From the NCBI GenBank assembly GCA_003220435.1, contig QHSL01000091.1, forward strand, positions 1 to 43,696: a stretch of DNA of 43,696 nucleotides, written 5' to 3'. The notes below the pieces were generated by a model, which worked only from the letters and a program-made list of their open reading frames with translations, did no database searches and was not told the DNA's origin. Positions 8,872 to 28,009 of this stretch are shown piece by piece; position 1 is the stretch's first letter, and each line of letters starts with the position of its first letter. This DNA is from Candidatus Rokuibacteriota bacterium (GTDB taxonomy: Bacteria; Methylomirabilota; Methylomirabilia; Rokubacteriales; CSP1-6). The position numbers were made by a program, and so were the translations under genes.

Positions 8872-8898
8872 TATGTTGCGATTGACACCGTGAAATTC
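8850..8898. repeat. Direct repeat GTGAAATTC x2, 40 bases apart, within divergent promoters
   Basis: Identical 9-mers at 8850-8858 and 8890-8898, one inside each promoter spacer, flank the TGTCAAT/ATTGACA inverted repeat (8866-8872 and 8881-8887). The sites lie on roughly the same helical face (about four turns). They could be an operator coordinating both promoters, or chance. Confidence 0.4.
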
Positions 8899-8911
8899 TC
8901 CGGCGTAGACT
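8882..8911 (+). promoter_or_regulatory. Divergent promoter of the kinase operon (TTGACA-18-TAGACT)
   Basis: The plus strand has TTGACA at 8882-8887, an 18-base spacer and TAGACT at 8906-8911, about 60 bases before the first plus-strand gene. The two -35 boxes of the divergent pair are only 10 bases apart. The spacer carries a second copy of GTGAAATTC (8890-8898), exactly 40 bases from the first copy and in the same orientation. A shared repressor or activator site is an inference from this symmetry. Confidence 0.62.
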
Positions 8912-8971: not shown

Positions 8972-9340
8972 GTGCCGGTGACCCGCTGGGCGCTCGCCAC
9001 TCTCGGCGCGCTCCTGGTGTTGGGCATCGCCACGGTCGCCGTTGCTCGGTTCTTCGGCAAGTCCGGATCCCGCGCCTCGGTCGTCGCGTCGATCGCCGCC
9101 CACTGGCTTGGCGCATACGTCCTCTGGAGCTTTGCCGGCGGGCTCGCAGTGACGTCCGGCGTCCTCTCCACCTATTACAGCGCGCCGTTCGCCGCGATCG
9201 GGATCCTCGGAGCCCTCTGGCAGTACCAAACCCACGTCCGGTGGGGTCGCGAGCGCGCGCTGGCGGTGTTCGTCAGCGTCCAGCTCGCATGGCTGGTGTG
9301 GGTGCTGAGCCAGAACGGCATGTTCCCCGTCGGGTGGTGA
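8972..9340 (+). CDS. Small four-helix membrane protein, unknown function
   Basis: A 122-residue hydrophobic protein I do not recognise. Four likely membrane helices are at about residues 7-27, 36-60, 68-86 and 95-118. The loops contain a few Arg/Lys on one side (RFFGKSGSR, HVRWGRER), giving a predictable topology. It has no signal peptide and no conserved catalytic motif that I can see. The start is GTG 8972; a GTG three codons in is an alternative. Ribosome-binding sequence is weak (GAGAG 13 bases upstream). It is the first gene behind the plus-strand promoter and ends 9 bases before the large histidine kinase, so it is probably co-transcribed. It could be a membrane partner for the soluble kinase, but that is inference. 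Confidence 0.72.
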   Translation: MPVTRWALATLGALLVLGIATVAVARFFGKSGSRASVVASIAAHWLGAYVLWSFAGGLAVTSGVLSTYYSAPFAAIGILGALWQYQTHVRWGRERALAVFVSVQLAWLVWVLSQNGMFPVGW

Positions 9341-9349
9341 TAGGCTCGG

Positions 9350-12300
9350 ATGAGGATGGGCGAGCGGGATGCGATCCTGGTCGTCGACGACGATCCCAAC
9401 GTTGCGCTTCTCCTGAGCGACTTTCTCGAGCGCGAAGGGTACCCGGTCGTCGTGGCTCCCACCGGGAGCGAGGGCCGACGCCTGCTCCGCGAAGGCGCCT
9501 TCGCTCTCGTCTTGATGGACCTCAACCTGCCCGACGCCGACGGCACCGTGCTCATGCGCGAGGCCGAGCGGGTGGACGAGCCCCCCGAGATCATCGTCGT
9601 CACGGGTCACGCGACGCTCGAGTCGGCGCTCCAGGCGGTCGAGAGCCGCGCTGCCGGCTACATCATCAAGCCCATCGATCTGGCCCGCCTCGGCGCCCTC
9701 GTCGCGATGGTGTTCGAGCGGCGGCGGCTGGCCCTGGACAACGCGCGGCTGCAGGTCGAGCTGGCGGAGCGGCTCGGCGAGAGCGAAGCGCTCGCCGCGA
9801 TGTCGGCCACCGTCAGCTCCACCCTGGACGTCCGCGAGGCGCTGCGCCGGATCTCTCGCGAGCTCTCGCGTCTGCTCGGCGCCGACACCGCGGCCGCGTA
9901 CCTGCACGATCCCCGGAGCGGCCACCTGACGCCGGCCGCCGCGTACCACGTGCCCAAGGAGTTCCTGGCCACGCTCTCGGCGACGCCGCTGCCACTCAAG
10001 GAGCAGGGCTTGTTCCTGTCGCTGTGGTCCGAGCGCCGCCCCGTGCACTCGGACGACGTCGCCCACGACGAGCGGTTCACGCACGCGATGTTCCGGAGCT
10101 TCCCCCATCAGTCGGGACTGCTCCTGCCGCTCATCGTCGACGACGAGGTGATCGGCGGCTTCTATCTGGTCTGGTGGACCACCCGGCGCCGCTTTACCGA
10201 GCGTGAGGTTCGTGGGCTCGATCGCGTCTGCGGGCAGGTCGGGTTCTTTCTCCGCAACGCGCGCCTGTACGAACAGGCCGAGCGGAACCGGCAGCGACTG
10301 GAAGCCCTCAACGGCGTGTCGCGACGGCTGGCCGCCGTGCACGACCCGGAGGAGGTGCTGACGGTCATCGTGAACGAGGCCGCCCGGCTCGTCGGCGCCG
10401 AGGCGGCGGGCCTCCGCCTGCTCGAGGGCGACGAGCTCGTGGTCGGCGCGCGGACCGAAGCCGCCGCGGCCGTGATGTCGAGGCCGCGCATGAAGGCCGG
10501 GGAGAGCCTGAGCGGCCGGATCGTCGCCACCGGAGAGCCGGTCGTGGTCGAGGATCTGGCGGCCGACACGCGGTACGATCCCGCTCACAAGCGCGGCGCC
10601 CTCGAGCGGGGCTTCCTCGGCTTCATCGGCGTGCCGCTCCGTGCCCGCGAGTCCACCATCGGCACGCTCAACGTGTTCACCAAGGGCGCGCGCCACTTCC
10701 TGCCGGACGAGGTCGCGCTGCTGTCGGCGCTGGCCGACCAGGCCTCGCTGGCCATCGAGAAGGCGCGCTTGTTCCGGGCGACCGACGAGAGCCGGGCGCT
10801 GCTGGAGCGGCTCTCCCACGCGGCGATCACGATGCAGAGCTCCTGGGACCGCCGCGACCGGCTGGATGCTTTCGTACGGGCGGCGCGCGACGTGGTCGGC
10901 TTCGACCGCGTCGACGTGTTTCTGCTGACCGCCGACGGCACCCACCTCGAGCTGGTCACCACGGGCGGCGTCGACACCGAGCTCCGCCTGCCGGCGACGC
11001 CGGCCGCTGGTCCGTACTACGAGGCGTTGAAGAGCCGTCGCCCCGTCGCGGTGCTCTCCGACGCGGATCTGGCGTCGGTGCCTCCGCTCGATGCCGCGCA
11101 GCTCGCCGAGCCCTACCTGCGCTCGCGACGGTTCGTCGTGGCGCCGCTGGTGGTCGGCGAGCGGGTGATCGGCGCGGTGAGCGCCGACAACAAGTCGAGC
11201 CGCCGTCCGATCAGCCCGCGGAGCGTCGAGCCGTTCGGCTCGCTCTGCCAGAACCTGGCGATGGCGCTCGAGGAGAGCCGGCTCTACGCCGAGGCCCACG
11301 GTCGCGAGCAGGAGGCGACGAAGCTCTACTCGGTGACGCGCCAGCTCACCACCAGCCTGGACCGCGAGCACCTCCTCGATCTCATCGTCGAGCAGGCCAA
11401 GGAGCTGACGGGGTGCGACGCGGTCGGCGTGTTCTTCTTCGACCCCGCTCGCGACGCGCTGGTCTTCCATCGCGGCCTCAATCTCGCCCCGGAGTTGACG
11501 AGCGTCCTCGCGCTGCGCCCTGGCGAGGGCGTCGCCGGGCGCGCCTACCGGCAGCGCGAGCCGGTGTGGACGCGTGACCGCCGGACCGACCCGGCGATGC
11601 ATCACTCGCCGGAGACCCAGCGGTTGGTCGACTCGGCGGCTCCGCGCGCGTATCTGGGAGCGCCCATCACCACGCGCGAGGGGACGCACGGCGTCCTCGT
11701 CGTGTACTTCTTCGAGCCGCACGATTTTACTGTGCGCGAGGTCCAGCTCGTCTCGACGCTGGCCGACCACGCGGCGGTCGCGCTGCAGAACGCGCGGCTC
11801 CTCGAAGAGTCGCGGCGCCGCGAACGCGAGGCCCAGACGCTTTCCGGCGGCCTGGCGCTCCTGAACCAGGCGTCGCGCGCGCTCCACCGAACGCTCGACG
11901 TCGACGCGATGCTGGACGGCGCGCTCAAGGAGCTGGCGCGGGCGTTCGGCGCCAGCGGCGTGCTCGTGCACCACCTCGCCGAGGACGGGACGTTGATCCG
12001 CAGCGTCGGTCACTGGGTGACCGGCGGCGCGCCGCCCCGCGCTTCGGCGCGCCGGGGCCCGATCCGCGACTACGTGCGCCGGACGCGGGCGCCGCTGCTC
12101 TTGCGCGACGTCACGAAGCATCCCGATCTCGTCCACCCGGCGAACATCGCCCACGGTGTGCGGTCCATCGCGGCGTTTCCGATCATGGGCCCGGGCGAGC
12201 GCGTGCTGGGCGTGATGCTCCTCTACTACACGACGCCGCAGGTGTTCCCCGACCCCGAGCGCCGCCTGCTCGCCTCCTACGCCGATCACCTCGCGACGGC

Positions 12301-13393
12301 GCTCGAGAACGCCGGTCTCTATCAAGAAACGCAGTCGCAGCGGGTCCGCTTCGCGCAGATCTTCGACTCGACCTCCGACGGCATCGTCCTGGTCGGCCGT
12401 AGCGGCGAGATCCAGGCGGCGAACCGGCAGGCCGGAGACCTGCTCGGCTTCGACGCGGGCGCGGCCATCGGAGGCCGCCTGGCAGACCTGCTCGGCGGCT
12501 CCCGGACCTCGGTCGCCAATCACGATCGCGCGCTCCGCGACCTGTCAGCGCTGCTCGACGACCCGGACAACGGCGGCCAGGGGGAGCTCGAGCTGCGGCG
12601 GACCGGCCGGATCATCCACTGGGCCGGGCAACCCACGAAGGACGCCGCGGGCGCGACCGTCGGGTTCACCCTGACGCTGCGGGACGTGACGCAGGAGCGA
12701 CAGGTGAGCCAGATGAAGTCGGACTTCGTTTCGTTCGTCACCCATCAGCTCCGCACGCCGCTGGCCGGTATCAAGTGGATGCTCGAGCTGGCGGCGCAGA
12801 CGCCGCGGGTGCCCACCGAAGCCACGGGCTACGTGGCCGACGCGCGCGCGGCCGCCGACCGGCTGATCGGCCTGGTGAACGACCTGCTCGACATCTCGCG
12901 CCTCGAGAGCGGCAAGCTGACGATCAAGCGAGAGCCGACGAGCCTCGACGCGCTCACCCGGAGCGTGCAGGACGACCTGGTCTCCCTCGTGCGCGAGAAG
13001 GGGCACCGGCTCTCGGTGGCGGGCGGCGAGCGGGTCCCGCTGGTGATGGCCGACCCGCAGCTGCTCCGCCAGGTGATCGTCAACCTCACGTCGAATGCGA
13101 TCAAGTACACCCCGAGCGGGGGCGAGATCTCGATCCGCATCGGCGCCGAGAGCCCCGAGATGGTCCGCTGGGCGATCACCGACACCGGGATCGGGATTCC
13201 GAAGGGATCTCAGGGGAAGCTCTTCGAGAAGTTCTATCGGGCCGAGAACGTCCACACGGTCGAAACGGAAGGCACCGGGCTGGGCCTGTACCTGGTCCGT
13301 CTCATCATCGAGAAATTCGCAGGCCAGGTCTGGTGCGAGGCCGAAGAAGGCCGCGGATCGACGTTCATCTTCACGCTCCCAATCGAGGGCTAG
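9350..13393 (+). CDS. Giant soluble sensor kinase: REC-GAFx5-PAS-HisKA-HATPase
   Basis: 1347 residues with no membrane segment. Domains in order: receiver (about 7-125; acidic pocket D13-D15, phospho-acceptor D57, T85, K107); five GAF-type sensor domains (about 150-310, 315-475, 484-640, 654-815, 827-985); PAS (about 1000-1120); HisKA with H1132 in HQLRTP; HATPase with N box N1245/N1249 (NLTSNAIKYTP), DTGIGIP from 1278, and GTGLGLYLV. All catalytic residues are intact. The N-terminal receiver means the kinase is itself a phosphorylation target or a phospho-relay member. The ligands of the GAF domains cannot be predicted; no obvious chromophore or haem ligand stands out. It is followed by two receivers and a GspE ATPase in one operon, which are plausible outputs. 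Confidence 0.93.
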   Translation: MRMGERDAILVVDDDPNVALLLSDFLEREGYPVVVAPTGSEGRRLLREGAFALVLMDLNLPDADGTVLMREAERVDEPPEIIVVTGHATLESALQAVESRAAGYIIKPIDLARLGALVAMVFERRRLALDNARLQVELAERLGESEALAAMSATVSSTLDVREALRRISRELSRLLGADTAAAYLHDPRSGHLTPAAAYHVPKEFLATLSATPLPLKEQGLFLSLWSERRPVHSDDVAHDERFTHAMFRSFPHQSGLLLPLIVDDEVIGGFYLVWWTTRRRFTEREVRGLDRVCGQVGFFLRNARLYEQAERNRQRLEALNGVSRRLAAVHDPEEVLTVIVNEAARLVGAEAAGLRLLEGDELVVGARTEAAAAVMSRPRMKAGESLSGRIVATGEPVVVEDLAADTRYDPAHKRGALERGFLGFIGVPLRARESTIGTLNVFTKGARHFLPDEVALLSALADQASLAIEKARLFRATDESRALLERLSHAAITMQSSWDRRDRLDAFVRAARDVVGFDRVDVFLLTADGTHLELVTTGGVDTELRLPATPAAGPYYEALKSRRPVAVLSDADLASVPPLDAAQLAEPYLRSRRFVVAPLVVGERVIGAVSADNKSSRRPISPRSVEPFGSLCQNLAMALEESRLYAEAHGREQEATKLYSVTRQLTTSLDREHLLDLIVEQAKELTGCDAVGVFFFDPARDALVFHRGLNLAPELTSVLALRPGEGVAGRAYRQREPVWTRDRRTDPAMHHSPETQRLVDSAAPRAYLGAPITTREGTHGVLVVYFFEPHDFTVREVQLVSTLADHAAVALQNARLLEESRRREREAQTLSGGLALLNQASRALHRTLDVDAMLDGALKELARAFGASGVLVHHLAEDGTLIRSVGHWVTGGAPPRASARRGPIRDYVRRTRAPLLLRDVTKHPDLVHPANIAHGVRSIAAFPIMGPGERVLGVMLLYYTTPQVFPDPERRLLASYADHLATALENAGLYQETQSQRVRFAQIFDSTSDGIVLVGRSGEIQAANRQAGDLLGFDAGAAIGGRLADLLGGSRTSVANHDRALRDLSALLDDPDNGGQGELELRRTGRIIHWAGQPTKDAAGATVGFTLTLRDVTQERQVSQMKSDFVSFVTHQLRTPLAGIKWMLELAAQTPRVPTEATGYVADARAAADRLIGLVNDLLDISRLESGKLTIKREPTSLDALTRSVQDDLVSLVREKGHRLSVAGGERVPLVMADPQLLRQVIVNLTSNAIKYTPSGGEISIRIGAESPEMVRWAITDTGIGIPKGSQGKLFEKFYRAENVHTVETEGTGLGLYLVRLIIEKFAGQVWCEAEEGRGSTFIFTLPIEG

Positions 13394-13398
13394 AGCCG

Positions 13399-13785
13399 AT
13401 GGAGACTTCCGAGAAACGGGTGCTGCTCGTCGAGGACGACCGATTCCTGCGCCGCGCCTGCGAGGCGAGTCTGCGGCAGCGCGGGCTGTCGGTCACGACC
13501 GCCGCCGACGGTGAGGAAGGGCTTCGGCTCGCCCGGAGCGAGCTGCCCGACCTGATCCTGCTGGACATGCTGATGCCGAAGCTGTCCGGGCTGGAGGTGC
13601 TCAGAGCGCTCCGCGGCGAGGACGCGACGCGCGCGGTGCCCGTGCTCATCCTCTCGAACTCCTCGCGCGAGTCCGACATCGCCGAGGTCACCCGGCTGGG
13701 GATCTCCGGGTACTTCGTGAAGTCCAACCTGTCTCTGCAGGAGCTCGGCGAGCTCGTCGGGCGCCTGCTGGCTGCCTCCAAGTGA
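13399..13785 (+). CDS. Single-domain response regulator (first of a tandem pair)
   Basis: 128 residues that form only a receiver domain (CheY/PilH-like), with no DNA-binding or enzymatic output. Key residues are E12-D13-D14 (LLVEDDRF), phospho-acceptor D56 (LLDMLMP), Ser86 at the usual Thr/Ser position (LILSNSS) and K108 (YFVKSN). ATG 13399 lies 5 bases after the kinase stop and its stop overlaps the next receiver as GTGA. About half of the residues are identical to the following protein, so the pair arose by tandem duplication. Likely phosphorylated by the upstream kinase and acting by protein contact. Confidence 0.93.
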   Translation: METSEKRVLLVEDDRFLRRACEASLRQRGLSVTTAADGEEGLRLARSELPDLILLDMLMPKLSGLEVLRALRGEDATRAVPVLILSNSSRESDIAEVTRLGISGYFVKSNLSLQELGELVGRLLAASK

Positions 13786-14171
13786 CCGAGCGCGCGCGGC
13801 GGATTCTGCTCGCCGAGGACGACCGGTTCCTGCGTCGCGCCGCGGAGTCTCGTCTTCGTCAGGGCGGGTTCACCGTGATCACGGCGGTCGACGGTGAGGA
13901 AGCGCTGCGAATCGCGCGCGCGGAGCAGCCCGATCTCGTTCTCCTCGATCTCATCATGCCCAAGATCCAGGGCTTCGAGGTGTTGAAGGCGTTGAAGGAC
14001 GACGCGACCACCCGGCACATCCCGGTCATCGTGCTGTCGAACCTCGGCCAGGAGAGCGACGTCCAGCGGGCGATGGCCCAGGGCGCCATCGCCTACGTCG
14101 TCAAGGCGAACCTCTCGCTCCAGGGCCTCGCGCAGAAGGTCGCCGAGGTGTTCGAGGGAGGGACGCCGTAA
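13782..14171 (+). CDS. Single-domain response regulator (second of a tandem pair)
   Basis: 129-residue receiver-only protein. E12-D13-D14 (LLAEDDRF), D56 (LLDLIMP), Ser in VIVLSN and Lys in YVVKANLSL mark a complete phosphorylation site. It starts at GTG 13782 within the stop of the previous gene and ends in TAATG with the GspE-like gene, so translation of the three is chained. Receiver-only regulators next to a PilB/GspE ATPase recall PilG/PilH, which control type IV pilus motors. That comparison is inference; no pilus structural gene is in the window. Confidence 0.92.
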   Translation: MTERARRILLAEDDRFLRRAAESRLRQGGFTVITAVDGEEALRIARAEQPDLVLLDLIMPKIQGFEVLKALKDDATTRHIPVIVLSNLGQESDVQRAMAQGAIAYVVKANLSLQGLAQKVAEVFEGGTP

Positions 14172-15910
14172 TGCTGGCGCTGCAAATCTCGGAGGAGGAG
14201 CTCCGGGCGCTCGTCGTCGACGAGCTCGCGGTCGTCGACAAGGCGGAGTTCGAGGCGGTCCGGCGGATGGCCGCCCGGCTCCGGATCCCGCTCGAGCGGG
14301 CGCTGGTCGAGCGCGGGCGGGTGCCGATCGGGTTCGTTCTGGTGCGCGTCGCCGAAGCCTGGGGGGTCGGCTTCGTCGACCTGAAAGTCAGCGACGTCAA
14401 GCTCGAGGCGCTGCGCGTGCTGACCGAGGAGTACGCGCGGAAGAACCTGCTGCTGCCTTTCGAGCTCCGCGACGCCGCGCTGCACGTCGCGATGTGGAAC
14501 CCCCGCGACCGGCGGGTCATCGACGAGGTCCAGCGGACGACTGGGCGGAAGGTCGTGCCCTTCCTGGCCCCGGAGAACTCGATCCGGCGGGGCCACCTTC
14601 TCTACAAGAGCAGCTTGCGCGAGATGCTCGAGCGCTCGGTCGCCGATGAGACGATGCGCGTGGATGCCGACGGCTGGGCGGCCAGCGATCGCAGCGCGGC
14701 CGAGCTGCTGACGCGGATTCTCGAGTACGCGGCGGTCGCCAGAGCGTCGGACATCCACATCGAGCCATACGAGCTGGAGATCCTGGTCCGGTACCGCGTG
14801 GACGGCACGCTGCGCGAGGTGTTGAGTCTGCCGCCGGCGGCCCTCCAGTCCCTGGTCGCACGGGTGAAGATCCTGAGCCAGATGCGGATCGACGAGCGGC
14901 GGGCACCGCAGGACGGACGCTTCGAGGTGGACCTGGGCGGCTTCACGATCGACTTCCGCGTGTCCACCCTGCCCACCATGTGGGGCGAGAAGATCGTCCT
15001 GCGGGTGCTCTCCCGCGAGGGCATCGTCCTCGACCTCGAGGACCTCGGTCTCACGCCGCGCGATCACGCGATCGTGCTGCGGAACGTGCTGCGGCCGTAC
15101 GGGATGATCCTGATCACCGGGCCCACCGGATCCGGCAAGACGACGAGCCTCTACTCGATGCTCGTCCGTCTCGGCATCGAGCGGCAGAACGTCGTGAACA
15201 TCTCGACCATCGAGGATCCCATCGAGTACAACCTGCCCCGGATCAACCAGGTCGCGGTCAATCCGAACGCCGGGGTGGAGTTCGCCACCGGGCTGCGGGC
15301 GCTGCTCCGCCAGGACCCGGACATCATCATGGTGGGCGAGATCCGGGACCGCGAGACGGTGGAGATCGCGGTGCGCGCGGCGCTGGTGGGTCGCCTGCTC
15401 ATCTCGACCCTGCACACCAACGACGCGACCGGCGTCGTGCCGCGCCTGCTCGACATGGGGGTCGAGCCGTTCCTGCTGGCGTCCACGCTCGGCATGGCCC
15501 TGGCGCAGCGGCTGGTCCGGCGGATCTGCGCGAGCTGCCGGCAGTCCGTCACCCCGGATGCGTCGATCCTCGCCGCGTTGCGCGAGCGCGGGGACTTCGA
15601 GCGCACCGTGGAGGTGCTCCGGAGCGAGGGCGTGATGAGCGCGGCCGGCGACCCGCTGTCAAGCATCCGGTTGTTCCACGGGCAGGGCTGCGTCCAGTGC
15701 AACGGGAGCGGCTTCCGCGGCCGGCTGGGAGTCTTCGAAGTCTTCGAGGTCGACGATCGCATCCGCTCCATGATCATGGAGCGCCGCGACGCCACCGCGA
15801 TCCGGAACGAAGCGATCGAGCGGGGCATGAAGACCATGTTCCAGGACGGCCTCGCGAAAACGCTTCTGGGCGAGACAACGCTCGAGGAAGTGTTCCGCGT
15901 CGCTCCTTGA
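14171..15910 (+). CDS. GspE/PilB-family assembly ATPase, not accompanied by other secretion genes
   Basis: Hexameric ATPase family that powers type II secretion or type IV pilus assembly at the inner membrane. 579 residues: N-terminal T2SSE_N/MshEN-like domain (~1-150), linker, then the AAA-type core. Walker A is GPTGSGKTT (317-325, K323); the Asp box is ISTIEDPIEY; Walker B and His box are RQDPDIIMVGEIRDRETVE and STLHTNDA. A zinc-binding tetracysteine is C453/C456 (CASC) and C507/C510 (CVQC). I do not see the RLGxxL-type c-di-GMP motif in the N domain. No pilC, pilin, gspF or secretin gene flanks it. It is the last gene of the kinase operon and converges on pyrE with 23 bases between. Confidence 0.93.
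   Translation: MLALQISEEELRALVVDELAVVDKAEFEAVRRMAARLRIPLERALVERGRVPIGFVLVRVAEAWGVGFVDLKVSDVKLEALRVLTEEYARKNLLLPFELRDAALHVAMWNPRDRRVIDEVQRTTGRKVVPFLAPENSIRRGHLLYKSSLREMLERSVADETMRVDADGWAASDRSAAELLTRILEYAAVARASDIHIEPYELEILVRYRVDGTLREVLSLPPAALQSLVARVKILSQMRIDERRAPQDGRFEVDLGGFTIDFRVSTLPTMWGEKIVLRVLSREGIVLDLEDLGLTPRDHAIVLRNVLRPYGMILITGPTGSGKTTSLYSMLVRLGIERQNVVNISTIEDPIEYNLPRINQVAVNPNAGVEFATGLRALLRQDPDIIMVGEIRDRETVEIAVRAALVGRLLISTLHTNDATGVVPRLLDMGVEPFLLASTLGMALAQRLVRRICASCRQSVTPDASILAALRERGDFERTVEVLRSEGVMSAAGDPLSSIRLFHGQGCVQCNGSGFRGRLGVFEVFEVDDRIRSMIMERRDATAIRNEAIERGMKTMFQDGLAKTLLGETTLEEVFRVAP

Positions 15911-26638: not shown

Positions 26639-26642
<4 letters not shown>
26085..26642 (-). pseudogene. 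HExxH membrane protein gene broken by two compensating frameshifts
   Basis: Joining three frames gives a convincing ~185-residue membrane protein. It has an N-terminal helix (VRALGLLILLGLTW), LTFRGGGIPGFIHGVDLVFH, the zinc-protease-like HEAGH, further helices, and a C-terminal part HDWNYVLGRLGLL followed by a last helix and WNTPPPDRDPRPPTAA. The first break is near 26559-26570, where the upstream frame meets TGA (a missing C would restore it). The second is near 26288-26298 (an extra A in CCAACTCC). The first codon overlaps the ntrX stop (CTG 26642). Sequencing error and real decay cannot be separated here. Function unknown; a membrane metallopeptidase is possible. Confidence 0.75.

Positions 26643-27990
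<1,348 letters not shown>

Positions 27991-28009
<19 letters not shown>

Follow-up and report, generated by a model that had tools for sequence, protein, structure and literature searches.

A conserved receiver–ATPase gene pair in Rokubacteria and Nitrospirota, a candidate for phosphorelay control of a type IV filament-family motor

Introduction

How the motors of type IV pili receive two-component signals is not settled, and the locus described here raises the question in a compact form. In a genome whose named relatives are Candidatus Rokuibacteriota, five closely spaced genes encode a small membrane protein, a histidine kinase rich in GAF domains, two lone receivers (REC1 and REC2) and an assembly ATPase of the PilB/GspE kind. 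The initial annotation read all five as a control module for a pilus or secretion motor whose structural parts lie elsewhere, with the small membrane protein as a possible anchor. Which of these genes belong together, and does the ATPase answer to the receivers? That a receiver can act on such an ATPase is already known: EmvR of Xanthomonas oryzae is a binding partner of PilB and reduces PilB's ATPase activity by about 40%, for which the phospho-site residues of EmvR are required (PMC11973254). For the PATAN-REC protein PixE of Synechocystis, an interaction with PilB1 has likewise been reported (cited in PMC7690835). With a constant pair consisting of a receiver and its own ATPase, direct control by phosphorylation could be tested simply, with purified proteins; the locus also points to an ATPase subfamily, so far without a name, that occurs in Rokubacteria and Nitrospira, two groups whose surface behaviour is poorly known.

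Gene content of the locus

The window, that is, the whole stretch of DNA analysed (43,696 nt), is the complete contig C132 of a 5.4-Mb genome in 147 contigs. All five genes are on the + strand, between yicC on the left and pyrE-pyrF-carB on the right (both on the - strand), and are spaced as first annotated:

8882-8911, + strand, promoter-like site (-35 TTGACA at 8882-8887, 18-nt spacer, -10 TAGACT at 8906-8911)
8972-9340, + strand, ORF of the small membrane protein (probable start 8978)
9350-13393, + strand, kinase gene (gap of 9 nt after the membrane-protein ORF)
13399-13785, + strand, REC1 gene (gap of 5 nt after the kinase gene)
13782-14171, + strand, REC2 gene (overlap of 4 nt with the REC1 gene)
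14171-15910, + strand, ATPase gene, 579-aa product (overlap of 1 nt with the REC2 gene)

The promoter-like site is sigma-70-like and is one of two such sites found, where 0.2 were expected. Its TTGACA is invariant in seven same-genus genomes, including those without the ATPase, and TAGACT is kept in six of the seven (TACACT in L072); this conservation within the genus supports the proposal that a single putative promoter serves all five genes. Back to back with it lies a second candidate promoter (TTGACA-N18-TATCAT, 8871-8842, - strand), directed toward yicC and also conserved in the genus. No RNA element was found in the locus. The same contig carries a gene for an NtrC-type sigma-54 response regulator with REC, AAA+ and Fis HTH domains (26639-28009, - strand).

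Pfam searches bore out the domain make-up proposed for the kinase, the two receiver-only proteins and the ATPase. The kinase (1347 aa) carries a REC domain at 9-117, five GAF domains, PAS at about 1005-1118, HisKA at 1122-1188 and HATPase_c at 1235-1346, with no sensor transmembrane domain assigned, and its dN/dS against relatives is 0.22-0.24. HisKA and HATPase_c combined with REC, GAF and PAS is not the CheA-type kinase plus chemoreceptor by which Pil-Chp systems are recognized. In two same-genus loci (L073:4309-7932 and L074:4639-8184) the N-terminal 840 residues of the kinase are kept and the C-terminal half is different, and in L075 most of the kinase interior has been lost.

REC1 and REC2 (128-129 aa) consist of a Response_reg domain only, with no PATAN domain. 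They are each other's closest relatives within the genome (55% identity, next best 40%), which holds 50 receiver matches at E < 1e-8 in its 5.4 Mb. In a receiver tree they group together within Rokubacteria, with the Nitrospirota receivers outside (moderate support), and they appear to derive from a duplication in Rokubacteria. The phosphorylation residues of REC2 (DD13/14, D56, S86 and K108) are invariant in 16 sequences from two phyla, so that the family consists, like EmvR, of lone receivers with an intact phospho-site. The two receivers keep different company: REC1 accompanies the kinase, also in genomes that lack the ATPase (it is 98% identical in L069 and has a dN/dS of 0.06), and REC2 accompanies the ATPase, whose gene it overlaps in the window.

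The ATPase and its subfamily

The ATPase joins a degenerate MshEN domain to a T2SSE core that scores 415 bits against PF00437 (gathering cut-off 24.9). Walker A (GPTGSGKT), the acidic box (TIEDPIEY), Walker B (DPDIIMVGE) and two CxxC pairs are intact, and throughout the subfamily, in both phyla, the catalytic motifs and the cysteines that bind zinc show either no substitutions or conservative ones only. It falls short of the equivalog cut-offs for PilB (TIGR02538, 512.8 vs 675.65) and GspE (TIGR02533, 499.9 vs 630.25), which the genome's own PilB and GspE pass with 744.8 and 665.9, respectively. A tree that included 18 subfamily ATPases united them in a single clade (SH-aLRT 100) on a stem of 0.85, separate from the genome's PilB and GspE, and dN/dS values of 0.05-0.28 indicate purifying selection. 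The closest solved structures in the PDB are PilF of Thermus and PilB of Myxococcus and Geobacter. Foldseek matches of an AlphaFold model built from 14 sequences likewise follow PilB, PilF and GspE with poor TM-scores; because the core of that model is poor (mean pLDDT 59.4) and only its N domain is usable, no docking or structural argument is drawn from it.

The N-terminal domain of other such ATPases binds c-di-GMP. A 24-residue c-di-GMP motif (RLGxx...) has been published for MshEN domains (PMC5013675); in its strict or relaxed form it has 0 matches in all 14 subfamily members tested. Within the genome itself, PilB, GspE and the C32 ATPase carry the motif and the C69 ATPase does not. The missing motif suggests that the subfamily may have lost c-di-GMP ligand binding, although it falls short of proof because 10 of 32 control ATPases lack the motif too.

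Two further orphan assembly ATPases are encoded in the same genome. That on C69 (L117:9338-11761) is a GAF-MshEN-T2SSE fusion with no pilus genes seen nearby, and that on C32 (L118:7982-9979) has an extra N-terminal MshEN-like motif and scores under both the PilB and GspE equivalog cut-offs.

The locus of the ATPase itself has no T2SSF platform gene, as a PilB or GspE operon would. Only two such genes are present in the genome, and each is accompanied by an ATPase of its own: one is on C103, with PilB, PilT, PilC, PilS and a pilin, and the other on C91, with GspE, GspF and PilM/N-like genes. Among the module genomes tested, T2SSF is present in 15 of 16 (the exception is 77% complete) and PilT in 12 of 12, a co-presence that does not discriminate because it is common in bacteria. 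These observations are compatible with use of a shared platform by the ATPase. Of the control module with structural parts elsewhere that was first proposed, the receiver–ATPase unit and the pilus genes on C103 and C91 stand, and the membrane anchor is not supported.

The receiver–ATPase pair in two phyla

In all 21 loci carrying this ATPase (9 from Rokubacteria and 12 from Nitrospirota) the stop codon of a receiver gene lies close to the ATPase start, the spacing ranging from -13 nt (13 nt inside the ATPase gene) to +7 nt; in L110 it is the receiver's true stop that overlaps the ATPase start. Seven genomes (G000, G007, G017, G054, G056, G049 and G052) have the full set of window-type kinase, REC1, REC2 and ATPase; in G049 it lies at a contig edge and in G052 it is split over two contigs. 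When about 85,000 species genomes were scanned with the ATPase N domain, the same subfamily was recovered in nine Nitrospira-type MAGs as full-length proteins of 58-60% identity; a search of that phylum added three further loci, bringing the Nitrospirota total to 12, and a wider scan of 388 genomes returned the same Rokubacteria only. All 12 Nitrospirota loci have the gene order Hpt, REC, ATPase, with a receiver about 52% identical to REC2 and a stand-alone Hpt that retains the AH-x-x-KG phospho-histidine motif (12/12). Pairwise distances of receiver and ATPase are correlated (r 0.95 overall; 0.65 in Rokubacteria alone, permutation p 0.003), part of which is shared descent. Two of the Nitrospira ATPase copies are interrupted (L136:8001-9743 and L133:5172-6919), one by an in-frame TAG and one by an apparent frameshift, and may be either pseudogenes or assembly errors.

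The partner beside the pair varies but is always a phosphorelay part. It is the GAF-HisKA kinase in loci like the window, a lone Hpt in Nitrospirota and, in G038 and G023 (loci L107 and L109), a CHASE-HisKA-HATPase-REC-REC-Hpt hybrid kinase. The conserved core is thus REC2 plus the ATPase, and the five genes do not make up a single conserved module; the gene order that was expected to be conserved is poorly kept in relatives for the full set but holds across two phyla for REC2 and the ATPase. A locked pair with changing upstream partners suggests a motor under phosphate signalling.

Loss of the ATPase in relatives

The ATPase is patchily distributed, being present in 9 of the 95 genomes of the phylum that were sampled, all of one family. 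Nine genomes (G001, G002, G003, G005, G006, G008, G012, G033 and G039) have the kinase and REC1 without an intact ATPase. Within the genus of the window, six relatives, which is most of them, lack an intact ATPase but still have the kinase or its receivers: G003 has neither REC2 nor ATPase, G008 (L071:5433-6199) has a remnant of about 110 N-terminal and about 150 C-terminal codons in different frames with the core deleted, and in the other four the ATPase is absent. The ATPase is, then, decaying in this genus.

REC2 has not followed it. In the five same-genus genomes that have REC2 but no intact ATPase, all phospho-site residues are intact, and REC2 dN/dS is 0.10-0.36, as against 0.25-0.44 in ATPase-bearing pairs. 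The ratio of REC2 to REC1 dN is higher without the ATPase (2.6-7.1 vs 0.8-1.7) because REC1 is more constrained in those genomes; relaxation of REC2 after ATPase loss was considered and rejected, its own dN/dS not being raised. L110 enters none of these REC2 pairs. Since REC2 stays constrained without the ATPase, it either has other targets or can acquire them. The ATPase had been counted among the only encoded outputs of the locus, and it can no longer be seen as the sole possible one, given that the kinase and REC1, and often REC2, outlive its loss.

Discussion

With somewhat better than even confidence, we favour the view that the locus encodes a phosphorelay-controlled, auxiliary ATPase of the type IV filament family, which would be bound by its receiver and would work on a platform encoded elsewhere. 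The GAF-rich kinase would phosphorylate REC1 and REC2, and its own N-terminal receiver may take input from a further kinase. REC2 would bind the ATPase, its operon partner, most likely at the N-terminal domain, and could then switch either the hydrolysis of ATP or the docking of the ATPase to a PilC/GspF platform in the inner membrane, which the ATPase would borrow. Filament assembly would be changed as a result, whichever direction the effect might take. REC1 would probably have another target or serve as a phosphate sink.

A more specific evolutionary reading, which is possible but put forward tentatively, is that a dedicated phosphorylated receiver took over from c-di-GMP as the controlling element. 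The MshEN domain would have lost its ligand motif and become a dock for the receiver, with the phosphodonors being swapped by lineage.

It is rather unlikely, in our judgement, that the main targets of the receivers are other proteins, for example the housekeeping PilB encoded on C103, and that the ATPase of the operon is either a decaying paralogue or an accessory that can be dispensed with. The nine genomes that have retained the kinase and REC1 but no intact ATPase speak for it, as do the stronger constraint on REC1 than on REC2 in ATPase-less genomes and the remnant in L071, with its core deleted and its ends out of frame; EmvR, moreover, is a lone receiver that acts on an ordinary PilB (PMC11973254). 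However, a receiver gene adjoins the ATPase gene in every one of the 21 loci, and the ATPase has kept all its catalytic motifs over the deep Rokubacteria-Nitrospirota split with a low dN/dS.

That the ATPase is a signalling or scaffold protein reporting to another pathway, and not a filament motor, is distinctly unlikely. PilB of Myxococcus xanthus does have a role in regulating exopolysaccharide that is separate from its work as a motor (PMC5544727), no dedicated platform gene accompanies the window ATPase, and the second orphan ATPase of the genome carries a GAF domain. Yet both Walker motifs, the catalytic acidic box and the two zinc CxxC pairs have been preserved in two phyla, as would be expected of a working hexameric motor.

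A five-gene system anchored by the small membrane protein is highly improbable and, as a conserved unit, largely refuted, even though a common conserved promoter and a gap of only 9 nt between the membrane-protein ORF and the kinase gene would fit it. AlphaFold predicts four helices for this protein (pLDDT 84.7), in agreement with the four transmembrane segments first proposed. The length of 122 residues belongs to the ORF from 8972 (+); the real protein is probably 120 aa, as the start codon of its relatives aligns with 8978. Pfam and NCBIfam searches gave no match, and a fold search of the PDB returned nothing at E < 0.001; its best fold matches, chains of pentameric channels, have a TM of about 0.34 and are not meaningful. 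It occurs in 37 of 148 genomes searched, all of the window's family, and in most fetched loci that show yicC and pyrE it lies between them. A window-type kinase is directly downstream in about 12 of its loci, but about 25 are without one, and the receiver–ATPase pairs of L107, L109, L110 and every Nitrospirota locus have no adjoining small membrane protein. Because it lies mostly beside yicC without other module genes, it was rejected as part of the module: it is a co-transcribed neighbour outside the conserved core, and its suggested role as an anchor is not supported.

Chance co-transcription of a functionally unrelated receiver and ATPase might be entertained where receivers are as numerous as in this genome (50 matches), but we give it almost no credence because the pairing recurs in all 21 loci, across two phyla and in different upstream contexts.

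The phosphorelay-controlled motor that we favour is best counted as a variant of a known principle, because direct precedents exist in EmvR-PilB and PixE-PilB1. EmvR is likewise a stand-alone receiver under a histidine kinase that acts on a type IV pilus extension ATPase and needs its phospho-acceptor Asp and a Thr/Ser, but it is an orphan working on the housekeeping PilB, whereas here receiver and distinct ATPase have overlapping genes with a phosphodonor adjacent. PixE, as described in the account cited above, is a CheY-like receiver that reportedly contacts the extension ATPase and thereby redirects motility; unlike REC2 it has a PATAN domain, and it is there said to be bound by the light sensor PixD and not paired with a neighbouring kinase. 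The Pil-Chp system of Pseudomonas aeruginosa (ChpA, PilG and PilH) shares the plan of one kinase, two lone receivers and a type IV pilus motor output, but ChpA is of chemotaxis type with the receptor PilJ, in contrast to the HisKA kinase with GAF and PAS domains seen here, and no interaction of PilG or PilH with PilB has been reported (PMC11656802). The ATPase itself resembles PilB and GspE in its MshEN-type N domain, T2SSE core, Walker motifs and zinc CxxC pairs, and differs in its sub-cut-off scores, the missing c-di-GMP motif, its place outside any pil or gsp operon and its separate clade. A dedicated receiver–ATPase pair was not found described in the open-access literature searched, including that on Nitrospira pili and on GspE with phosphorelay Hpt proteins. 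What is new is a genetically fixed, dedicated pair with interchangeable donors in two phyla.

A further neighbour is seen in G038 and G023, where the receiver–ATPase unit lies upstream of a gene for a di-haem cytochrome c peroxidase (MauG-type; L107:3791-4828 and L109:13367-14404). This gene overlaps the upstream ATPase gene by 14 nt in both loci, hinting at a redox or periplasmic link.
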